Part shown: piece after piece, positions 40,393 to 43,069 of the stretch | Numbering within the stretch: position 1 is the stretch's first letter | Layout: every line of letters starts with the position of its first letter | DNA from: Flavobacteriales bacterium | Lineage (GTDB): Bacteria; Bacteroidota; Bacteroidia; Flavobacteriales_D; Crocinitomicaceae | Reading direction: 5' to 3' | Assembly: GCA_947461635.1 (NCBI GenBank) | Contig: CANHMH010000006.1 | Coordinates: 1-43,069, forward strand | Length of the DNA: 43,069 bases | Translations under genes and position numbers: made by a program | Notes under the pieces: generated by a model | The model's input: the letters and a program-made list of their open reading frames with translations, nothing else | What the model was told of the DNA's origin: nothing | Database searches by the model: none

Positions 40393-41979
40393 TTAAGTGG
40401 TCTCATCATATTGGTCCGCCATCAAACGATCCAATACAATTTGCAAATTCAATTCCTTTTTTTCTTGACGCATTTGAATAGCTGTTTGCGTAAAAAATTG
40501 ATGTTGCTTCAAGAATTTTACTTGGATTTCATCCCATTGTTTGCGTGATTCTAATTTCCCCATTTCGGTTAATTCTAGTCGCAGGCGGTCAGCTATTTTC
40601 TCAAAATCATCAGTCCCTAGGTAATCTAAATCGGCATCGCAAATGATTTCTTGCAGCTTATTTATTGGTTTGTGTGGGAATTTTGTTACGTGAATAAGTT
40701 CTACAATTGTTTTTACGTGTTGTTCTGTGTAGCCGTATTTTGGGAGGATTTCCCTTGCCATTCGCGCACCAATTTCTTCATTGTTATCGTACCTTTCGAT
40801 AAATCCGGCATCGTGTAAAATAGCCGCAGTTTTCAATAAAAACAGCCCTTCATCTGTCACACCTTCAAGCAATGCAATTCGTTCTACCGACTTTACGACA
40901 TCTTTTGTATGCCTCAAGGAGTGGTAATACAATTTGTCAGACAAGTTCTTTTCTAGAAATGAAAGCACATTGTGTTCCGTTTTATAGTATTTAATCGAGC
41001 TGTAATGATGTAATTTTTTGATTTCTTCGAACCGAGAATTTGGTAACAAACCTTCACCATTGAGGGAAAGCTCTGGTTTTATGCGATTAACCACATATGT
41101 ATCGACTTTCTCACGTGATTTTGTAAGTGCTTTTCCTTTGTATTCACATTCAAAATAAGGCTCAATAAATTGGAATGTACTTCCTGTAATTGTAACTTTC
41201 CCTGGTTCACCTAACATCTCCATCCGTTGAGCTAGATTTACTGTTGATCCCCAAATATCGTAAGCTAATCGAATATTCCCGATGATTCCAGCAATAACAG
41301 GTCCGGTATTTATCCCAAGTCTTATCTCCCAAAAATCTTCGTGATCTGCAATGGCTTCATACTTCAATTTATCCATAAACGCTTGGATCTGTAGCGCTGC
41401 GGTACACGCATCGATGGGATTGGTTGAGTTTTCAATTGGAACGCCCCCAGCACACATGTAGGCGTCTCCAATAGTTTTAATTTTCTCTAGGTTGTTCGCT
41501 TGAATGATTTCATCAAACTTTTGGAATAGAATATCTAGTTTGGAAACGATTCTACTTGGTTGCATGGTATCTGAAATACGCGTAAATCCGACCACATCTG
41601 TAAACATGACGGATACTTGTTGGAATCCTTGCGCTTTTACTTTTCCGGAGCGTTTTAATTCAATGACAACCTCTGAAGGTAATGTATTATTTAGCCATTG
41701 TTCTGTACGGTCTTTTTCCGTTTGAAGTAGAACCTGTTGTTGAAGTACTTTGTTTTTTTCTTCTTCAATTAAGCGGTTTTGTTCTTCGATTTTTGTCTTC
41801 TGGAGGCGTATTTCTCTTGTTCTTTCAGCAATCTTTACCTCTAATCTTACTTGATTTCTTCGAGACCGTTCAATTCTACTTCGAATGAAGATAAAAATGC
41901 TGAAAAATAAAATGACGCTGGACAAGACCCAGAACCACCAAGTTTGCCAAAAATGTATTTCGCGTGTTAATTCTATCAT
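40393..41979 (-). CDS. Membrane-anchored class III adenylate cyclase fused to an HD domain
   Basis: The product has 528 residues. Residues 9-33 are one membrane helix (FWQTWWFWVLSSVILFFS), 34-95 a coiled coil, and 120-300 a class III cyclase. The metal Asp are D128 (MFTDVVGFT) and D172 (GDAYM). The base-selecting pair is K168 and D241 (YDIWGSTVNL), pointing to ATP rather than GTP, with transition-state N248 and R252. Residues about 350-470 are an HD domain: H353, H357, HD at 389-390 (ILHDAGF), H430 and D448 or D450 (CDADLDYLG), a complete metal set. The N-terminus resembles the end of Y_Y_Y sensor proteins, but an in-frame TGA sits directly before the ATG, so no sensor is fused. A TAAATTTG box lies 34 bases upstream. 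Confidence 0.85.
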   Translation of the reverse strand: MIELTREIHFWQTWWFWVLSSVILFFSIFIFIRSRIERSRRNQVRLEVKIAERTREIRLQKTKIEEQNRLIEEEKNKVLQQQVLLQTEKDRTEQWLNNTLPSEVVIELKRSGKVKAQGFQQVSVMFTDVVGFTRISDTMQPSRIVSKLDILFQKFDEIIQANNLEKIKTIGDAYMCAGGVPIENSTNPIDACTAALQIQAFMDKLKYEAIADHEDFWEIRLGINTGPVIAGIIGNIRLAYDIWGSTVNLAQRMEMLGEPGKVTITGSTFQFIEPYFECEYKGKALTKSREKVDTYVVNRIKPELSLNGEGLLPNSRFEEIKKLHHYSSIKYYKTEHNVLSFLEKNLSDKLYYHSLRHTKDVVKSVERIALLEGVTDEGLFLLKTAAILHDAGFIERYDNNEEIGARMAREILPKYGYTEQHVKTIVELIHVTKFPHKPINKLQEIICDADLDYLGTDDFEKIADRLRLELTEMGKLESRKQWDEIQVKFLKQHQFFTQTAIQMRQEKKELNLQIVLDRLMADQYDETT

Positions 41980-42013
41980 TCAAATGAGTGCTCGTGGATA
42001 CAATTGCTTTGAA

Positions 42014-42047
42014 CAAATTTACGAAATACCAAAGCGTAACGCTTCAA
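42014..42047 (-). promoter_or_regulatory. Promoter of the cyclase-HD gene
   Basis: On the minus strand TTG (42047-42045) is followed after 23 bases by TAAATTTG (42021-42014), an exact -7 match. The ATG at 41979 is 34 bases further on. It lies between the upstream gene's terminator and this gene. Confidence 0.45.
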
Positions 42048-42054
42048 TAATCCA

Positions 42055-42078
42055 TAAAAAAAGGGGCCGCAGCCCCTT
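42055..42078 (-). terminator. Intrinsic terminator of the CsgG-like/barrel gene
   Basis: AAGGGGC-CGCA-GCCCCTT (42061-42078) is a 7-bp GC-rich stem with a tetraloop, followed on the minus strand by seven T. It starts 3 bases after the stop codon of the 42082 gene. Confidence 0.88.
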
Positions 42079-42081
42079 CCA

Positions 42082-43069
42082 TTAATAGTATCCTTTTTTA
42101 GGAGTCGGTTGGTTAATTGGTTGTTTACTTTTTTGGACATTGAAACCAACGTTTATTCCAGCAAATCCTCCGCCTTTTTGGGACGTATAAAACAAGTTAA
42201 CTGGGACATTCAACGATCCCGCGCGGAATGTGCGACCAAAAGCAATGACAAAACTTGTACTTAGTTTAGCACTTCCTCTCATATCTAAGTTTTCTTCAAA
42301 CGTATAATTTTGACCTAATTGAGTTCCAGTTGACAATGCATATTGGTTCCAATCGCTTCGTGAAAAATATTTACCTTGTTCACCATATGTGCCCTTCTCG
42401 TCGAAGAATCCTTCGCTCGTATGCTTAATGCTCAATCTAGGTCCGAAAGCAAATTCCCAACCATTTTTACCAAAACGAAATCCATTCATCAAAGTAAACG
42501 AAGGTAAAAATTTACCTTGCTCTAATCCTGATACATTTACGATTCCTTCTACTAATGCAGAGAAGTTTTCTGTTCCGACATATTGTCCTTCGAACTGATA
42601 CCCAATCATTGAAACGAACGGCGCGATATCTAGTCCACCTTGCGAAGTTGGTCGAGTGGCAAATTCATGTAATGAACCTACAAGTGCAGCTCCTCCAATT
42701 CTAGGACCTGAGTTATTGATTTTTCCAATGTTATTTGATGTAATCGGCTCGTTTTTGAATGCCAAGCGATCAGCCGTCACTTTGTCAACGGTAAATCCGT
42801 GTATTTCATAAAGTACAATTTCCAACATGCGTTGGATTTCCGTTTCTTGGTTATCGAACTCCTTCACCGCTGACTTGAATAATGTTTGATTTTTAACATC
42901 GACAATTTTAATGGTTAAAGCAATTTTGTTCCCAAGTCCGTCGATACTTCCGCACATGATGTAATCAACGTTCAATTCTGTTCCAAGTTTGATCAAGCAA
43001 TTTTGACCATAACAATTTGTTCTGAATTCCTCCTTTGCTTTTAAAACATCAGCCATGTCGTATTCGTCA
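42082..43069 (-). CDS. CsgG-like domain fused to an outer-membrane barrel, 5' end outside the window
   Basis: The frame stays open past the ATG at 43056 to the window edge (codons for D-E-Y-D precede it), so the true start is probably outside. The visible N-terminal part (YDMADVLKAK; NCYGQNCLIKLGTELNVDY; IMCGSIDGLGNKIALTI) resembles the nucleoside-triphosphate-free CsgG/TolB-N-like alpha-beta domain of lipoprotein secretion and assembly factors. From about residue 110 of the visible part the sequence turns into amphipathic beta strands (IGGAALVGSLHEFA, FTLMNGFRFGKNGWEFAFGP, AGINVGFNVQKSKQ) typical of a small outer-membrane barrel. A tail KQPINQPTPKKGYY ends it. The name is by resemblance only. 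Confidence 0.65.
   Translation of the reverse strand, partial: DEYDMADVLKAKEEFRTNCYGQNCLIKLGTELNVDYIMCGSIDGLGNKIALTIKIVDVKNQTLFKSAVKEFDNQETEIQRMLEIVLYEIHGFTVDKVTADRLAFKNEPITSNNIGKINNSGPRIGGAALVGSLHEFATRPTSQGGLDIAPFVSMIGYQFEGQYVGTENFSALVEGIVNVSGLEQGKFLPSFTLMNGFRFGKNGWEFAFGPRLSIKHTSEGFFDEKGTYGEQGKYFSRSDWNQYALSTGTQLGQNYTFEENLDMRGSAKLSTSFVIAFGRTFRAGSLNVPVNLFYTSQKGGGFAGINVGFNVQKSKQPINQPTPKKGYY

Follow-up and report, generated by a model that had tools for sequence, protein, structure and literature searches.

The window analysed here is a stretch of 43,069 nucleotides from a 2.38 Mb assembly in 217 contigs that is 83% complete; on its minus strand, close to the contig end, lies a gene for a protein of 528 amino acids that joins a class III cyclase to an HD domain. 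The preliminary description had treated positions 40393-42047 as one feature; the gene itself occupies 40393-41979, and 41980-42047 is intergenic DNA upstream of it. A TGA stop does stand in frame directly before the ATG, as had been noticed. The features are:

40393-41979, minus strand: cyclase-HD gene, sensorless; open reading frame of 528 aa (Pfam domains, orthologues)
41980-41982, minus strand: in-frame TGA stop abutting the ATG (sequence)
41878-41943, minus strand: predicted membrane helix (single), at about residues 13-34, immediately following the former junction with the Y_Y_Y domain that was lost (alignment with long homologues; helix 14-99 of the model; membrane call by eye)
41683-41877, minus strand: predicted coiled coil preceding the cyclase, about residues 35-99 (helix 14-99 of the model; alignment; by eye)
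41086-41640, minus strand: predicted class III adenylate cyclase domain, residues 114-298, with D128, K168, D172, D241, N248 and R252 (PF00211; AC9 alignment; residue counts)
40417-40998, minus strand: predicted HD hydrolase domain, about residues 328-521, with invariant H353, H357, H389, D390, D448 and D450 and also Q486, F489 and H493 (PF01966; model; fold search)
42014-42021, minus strand: TAAATTTG, which we take to be a candidate promoter element, present in all five printed upstream sequences of the short form described below (sequence)
42053-42079, minus strand: terminator-like hairpin and T run, 3' of the upstream neighbour gene (by eye)

The same layout is seen in a model of the whole protein (pLDDT 88.5, pTM 0.71), which consists of a long helix at residues 14-99, a cyclase domain of mixed structure and an HD domain made up of helices only. 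The next gene upstream is 102 bases away, and the terminator-like hairpin behind it suggests that transcription of the cyclase-HD gene may start from a promoter of its own. This neighbour (42082-43068, minus strand), the start of which is cut by the contig end, contains a weak FlgO-like stretch (E 0.2, below the cut-off) followed by an apparent outer-membrane part; a FlgO-like stretch (E 0.004, below the cut-off) is also found in an HD fusion at another locus (L207).

The cyclase half matches Guanylate_cyc (PF00211) at residues 114-298 with 165.8 bits against a cut-off of 21.9 (E 1e-48). Class III adenylate cyclases work with two metal-binding Asp residues, a Lys/Asp pair for adenine and an Asn/Arg pair for the transition state. 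The complete catalytic set that had been read from the sequence is borne out, as all six residues (D128, D172, K168, D241, N248 and R252) stand at the positions named and align with those of adenylate cyclase 9 (AC9). Among 61 homologues, K168, D172 and N248 are retained in 61/61, D128 and D241 in 60/61, and R252 in 56/61; the five exceptions, all long forms (L028, L040, L041, L042 and L045), have Gln in place of R252, which may weaken their cyclase, and have an intact HD site.

This protein is the only class III cyclase detected in the source assembly at its 83% completeness. In 51 genomes of the genus, all at least 90% complete except the source genome, PF00211 matches exactly once in 44, two or three times in six (some of these perhaps pieces of one gene) and not at all in one. 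The source genome further encodes four regulators with cNMP-binding domains (L031-L034), in none of which did we see by eye the classical cAMP-binding cassette, a point against the reading of cAMP as the signal.

Distribution and loss of the sensor

A match at E <= 1e-20 is present in 90 of 100 related genomes, many of those outside the genus having a cyclase alone or an HD domain alone. The cyclase-HD order itself recurs. Of the 61 genus genomes, 52, our own among them, have a match spanning both halves, four have contig-cut pieces only and five have no match at E <= 1e-20; such spanning matches were also seen in 17 of the 39 genomes that belong to other families of the order, one of these matches being contig-cut. 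Across the phylum, a sample of 296 genomes with five candidates scored per genome yielded as clear fusions, among the matches listed, our own, one in the same genus (G020) and one in the same class (G247). Relatives in public contigs come nearly all from metagenome genomes, labelled mostly as Flavobacteriales, Flavobacteriia, Bacteroidetes, Crocinitomicaceae, Cryomorphaceae or Fluviicola, and in some cases oddly (Chitinophaga, Chryseobacterium, Planktophila).

Within the genus the protein occurs in two sizes, of about 530 and about 1300 amino acids. Sensor-bearing versions, the existence of which the preliminary description had raised, are thus at hand: the three long orthologues scanned (one of the genus, two of other families) carry Reg_prop and Y_Y_Y domains, then the cyclase, then the HD domain, whereas the protein in the window has neither a Reg_prop propeller nor a Y_Y_Y domain by Pfam. 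These three long forms have the same sensor as Reg_prop + Y_Y_Y one-component sensors; the difference is that the output here is a cyclase-HD pair and that the sensor is gone in the source lineage. The N-terminal residues of the short protein can be aligned with the final part of the Y_Y_Y domain plus the membrane helix in the long homologues (SPYWATWWFW vs. IHFWQTWWFW), which agrees with the earlier suggestion that the residues before the helix are the last part of a Y_Y_Y sensor protein.

The 21 short proteins of the genus group together in a tree of the 61 homologues, as a single clade (100/100) nested inside the long forms, and it is well supported that the short form is a derived loss of the sensor. 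A second tree places two further sensorless proteins (L110 and L171, the latter on a long branch and of unsure placement) outside the short clade; neither has the sensor within 5 kb upstream. Given the short clade, L110 and L171, the sensor was probably lost three times among the sequences compared. Three other loci with a short reading frame (L159, L169 and L170) are not counted as losses, because the sensor persists there in another frame. When the best 80 of 581 relatives found with the HD query are considered, the reading frame exceeds 1100 aa in 56, is short in 15 and is cut by a contig end in nine; of the 15 short loci, identity (82-96%) assigns ten to the short clade, two are further losses, and the remainder are the three with the sensor in another frame. 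Among these best 80 of 581, sensor-bearing orthologues therefore predominate.

Relocation of the sensor elsewhere in the genome was ruled out by a search with the sensor of a long form (G005) at E <= 1e-10: it has no match in 10/10 short-form genomes (six of them 99-100% complete; our own 83%) and is found once, fused, in 5/5 long-form genomes. Upstream of the short gene, a search for a sensor remnant gave only weak matches (best E 0.012). The downstream gene order is common to the 14 short-form and two long-form stretches compared; the upstream neighbour is common to 13 short-form stretches and to the long form of G043, but did not turn up next to the long form of G005. Within the short clade, the second half has one or two other genes between this neighbour and the cyclase-HD gene.

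An origin of the reading frame by chance, by a frame error or as a pseudogene is excluded by the 52/61 genus genomes with both halves, by the short clade and by low dN. Compared with the protein of G047, dN is 0.015 and dS 1.18 in the cyclase half, and dN is 0.039 and dS 2.09 in the HD half, many other dS values of the same comparison being not estimable.

Sequence and predicted fold of the HD half

The HD half matches PF01966 at residues 356-450 (27.2 bits vs. a cut-off of 22). The metal site that had been called complete stands in six of its residues: H353, H357, H389, D390, D448 and D450 are invariant in 61/61 homologues, and the loss of metal residues in homologues, which had been named as evidence against the reading, did not occur. 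The seventh residue proposed, H430, does not stand; it is His in only 32 of the 61 and is thus unlikely to belong to the metal site, and we rejected it as a ligand. Q486, F489 and H493 are invariant as well, in 66/66 core sequences and 24/24 HD sequences.

Several of these residues are arranged as in class I phosphodiesterases (PDEs). The spacing H353-x3-H357-x32-D390 falls within the class I PDE signature, H-x3-H-x25-35-D/E, and Q486 and F489 have the Q-x-x-F spacing of the Gln and Phe that bind the purine in these enzymes, both as described in the accessible part of PMC7720076; for Q486 and F489 the likeness consists of invariance and spacing only. A profile search with the C-terminal part that carries them returned no PDE sequence, its troponin-like matches being taken as chance, and lent no support to a purine-binding pair on sequence grounds. 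The class I PDE metal pocket comprises eight residues, including HDxxH plus further Glu and His (PMC5617230, accessible part); here the third His of HDxxH is replaced by F393, and the eight-residue pocket is incomplete. The Pfam model of class I PDEs (PF00233) is not listed for the protein; it matches 4/24 HD relatives weakly (best 0.0097), and its cut-off is passed by none of 247 genomes of the phylum.

Profile searches against solved structures gave different neighbours for the whole HD half and for its motif-bearing part. With the whole half, 2pq7 (3e-8), YedJ (3e-6) and YpgQ (0.002) precede every PDE. With the HxxxH...HD part, PDE9A is matched from E 0.003, histidine on histidine, and 37 of the 54 listed PDB sequences are named cyclic mononucleotide phosphodiesterase or simply 'Phosphodiesterase', many of the 37 being constructs of the same few enzymes. 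Two designed repeat proteins, which we take as chance matches, and two bacterial HD proteins outscore PDE9A in this search, and weak matches include a metal-dependent phosphohydrolase (E 0.01) and a cGAMP phosphodiesterase (E 0.05).

The HD domain modelled on its own (residues 305-528, pLDDT 93.5) has a fold like that of class I PDEs. The 50 VIA-align matches listed have Z scores of 16.5-17.7 and rmsd values of 2.8-3.7 over 195-203 aligned residues. A class I PDE is named in 47 of the 50 titles; the remaining three end before the protein name. For the predicted model, the class I PDE fold is matched with Z up to 17.7, rmsd 3.0 and 197 residues, over model residues 16-219 of 224 (PDE10A, PDE7A and PDE9A). 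No dinucleotide enzyme is named among the 50 matches, and no YpgQ chain is among them; the latter is no proof of absence, because PDE entries fill the list. Ranked by E-value in Foldseek, generic bacterial HD hydrolases come first, with 2pq7 (6.0e-4) and YpgQ (9.9e-4) ahead of PDE4D and PDE5. The HD half thus shares with class I PDEs the predicted fold, the HxxxH and HD motifs, the late Asp and, possibly, a Q-x-x-F pair at a plausible place, and differs from them in length, the PDE chains having 277-330 residues vs. the 224 modelled here. As PF00233 is not reached and the third His of HDxxH is missing, the protein resembles a class I PDE and is not filed as one.

Genomic company of the HD family

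We examined 36 free-standing or otherwise fused HD relatives, drawn from the matches in the 100 related genomes and in the phylum sample; one of them (L192) was dropped as it has no HD match. Of the remaining 35 loci, ten are no more than 5 kb from a class III cyclase gene (L202, L205, L206, L208, L209, L210, L211, L215, L216 and L217), a count that was again 10/35 when repeated with a single definition of reading frames, and 25 have none within that distance. A rough estimate from the usual number of cyclases per genome predicts about one or two such neighbours by chance, and no cyclase gene was found in 40 control stretches of 20 kb (800 kb), picked by hand from 20 genomes. At six of the ten loci the neighbouring cyclase has 343-348 aa, and the two of these scanned are both REC-cyclase proteins; these six loci may all go back to a single arrangement passed on by descent. 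The cyclase at L212 lies 5.5 kb from the HD gene and was not counted as near.

Fusions and gene rows point in the same direction. L068 is a REC-cyclase-HD fusion; outside the 35 loci, L214 has a row of two cyclase genes and an HD gene, and L213 (5166-10760, minus strand), from another family of the class, encodes a protein of 1865 aa with kinase, AAA, GAF, cyclase and HD domains. At L206 (4977-6434) and L210 (4116-5570), the HD domain is fused to a YitT membrane protein with DUF2179, and the fusion at L210 is preceded on the same strand by a REC-cyclase gene some 10 bases away. An HD domain of the same family is fused, by Pfam, to the Pycsar effector domain PycTM at L194 (5013-6206) and L199 (4956-6122), proteins that are possibly effectors removing their own trigger. 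L258, judged by eye, and L195, judged by length only, likewise appear to encode HD-PycTM proteins. No cyclase lies within 5 kb of L194, L195 or L199. What the company of the HD family has in common is cyclic mononucleotides, and we therefore favour such a nucleotide as the HD substrate.

Function of the cyclase-HD protein

We give about an even chance to the following reading: the protein is a membrane-anchored homodimeric cyclase, a cyclic mononucleotide, in the first place cAMP, is the most probable substrate for hydrolysis by its HD domain, and one protein therefore both makes and breaks the signal. By analogy with other class III cyclases, two copies would pair through the coiled coil and so form the cyclase sites; on the cytosolic side the HD domains would lie beside these sites and degrade the product or a nucleotide related to it, whereby the signal would be kept low, local or short-lived. 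The ancestral form carried the Reg_prop/Y_Y_Y sensor before the membrane helix, and the lineage dropped it while keeping helix, coiled coil, cyclase and HD domain as a module. With the sensor gone, the output of this module would depend on expression, ATP, metal and any control of either half by small molecules. The opposing activities envisaged in the preliminary description are in this way supported indirectly, by the PDE-like model fold, the HxxxH and HD motifs, and the HD-cyclase and HD-PycTM neighbourhoods and fusions, with the HD substrate inferred.

The main rival, which we regard as somewhat unlikely, is that the HD half acts, like YpgQ and YedJ, as a hydrolase of (d)NTPs or pyrophosphate, and would remove pyrophosphate or spare substrate and so pull the cyclase forward or clear nucleotides. 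It takes this place because two characterised relatives from bacteria, YpgQ and YedJ, are Mn-dependent (d)NTP pyrophosphohydrolases according to the accessible part of PMC6692503; in addition, 2pq7 and YpgQ rank before the PDEs in both Foldseek and the whole-HD profile (YedJ in the profile). YpgQ and YedJ differ from the protein studied here in these reported substrates and in that the matched chains have no cyclase domain. The link of the HD family with cyclases and PycTM, however, fits a cyclic nucleotide better, the 50 listed fold matches contain no YpgQ chain (with the reservation given above), and the same source calls YpgQ and YedJ orthologues of AtCN-PDE1, a reported cGMP phosphodiesterase (PMC6692503). 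The cyclic nucleotide link also speaks against a messenger unrelated to the cyclase, such as ppGpp or a cyclic dinucleotide, the breakdown of which would join two signals in one protein: although the HD domains of HD-GYP proteins and PgpH act on cyclic dinucleotides (PMC12072042, accessible part) and the weak profile matches above include a cGAMP phosphodiesterase and a metal-dependent phosphohydrolase, the family adjoins class III cyclases and its listed fold matches name no dinucleotide enzyme, and we consider such a substrate improbable.

It is also rather unlikely that the HD half is mainly regulatory, binding cAMP, ppGpp or another ligand to control the cyclase with little or no hydrolysis. 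Its C-terminal place on a probably homodimeric cyclase would suit this role, and the sensorless form would presumably need some other input; the invariance of all six metal-site residues would, on the other hand, be unusual in a domain that only binds. That the gene is broken, a truncated leftover of a sensor protein that is in the process of being lost, is hardly credible: it does start where the sensor ended, but the short form is common to 21 genomes as one clade, dN is low in both halves, and the active-site residues are retained.

Enzymes that fuse the maker and the breaker of a signal are familiar from c-di-GMP and ppGpp signalling. The literature searched, which consisted partly of titles and the beginnings of abstracts, described no bacterial fusion of a cyclase with an HD domain or a phosphodiesterase. 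The closest parallel is CAPE (combined adenylyl cyclase with phosphodiesterase), a protein of plants that have motile sperm, Marchantia among them. According to the accessible parts of the reports, both activities of CAPE were measured and local control of cAMP is proposed (PMC5159850, PMC8115329). CAPE likewise combines a class III adenylate cyclase with a class I PDE in one protein, but as described there its PDE is N-terminal and its cyclase C-terminal, with two membrane helices between them, the reverse of the order here; and our protein is from a bacterium, with an HD domain that is not a canonical class I PDE.

In Pycsar systems the effector gene stands beside the cyclase. The protein studied here shares with them a class III cyclase (PycC match, E 1e-10) and HD relatives fused to PycTM, and differs in the adenine-type residues of its cyclase; PycTM has no match in the three neighbouring genes (two downstream and the contig-cut one upstream).

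We tentatively suggest, as a possibility short of an even chance, that bacteria may have a lineage of cyclic-nucleotide hydrolases resembling class I PDEs and accompanying class III cyclases, its members being fused to them, encoded next to them or joined to Pycsar effector domains. If so, the protein would be a bacterial cyclase-phosphodiesterase enzyme comparable to plant CAPE and the lineage a possible prokaryotic relative of the eukaryotic PDEs, and the repeated loss of the sensor would show the maker-breaker pair working alone as a unit. If the HD half breaks cAMP, it would be a bacterial cAMP phosphodiesterase of class I PDE-like type and could explain how the signal is controlled in a genome with one detected class III cyclase. 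Sensor-bearing and sensorless orthologues in one genus form a natural set in which the roles of sensor, cyclase and HD domain are directly testable.
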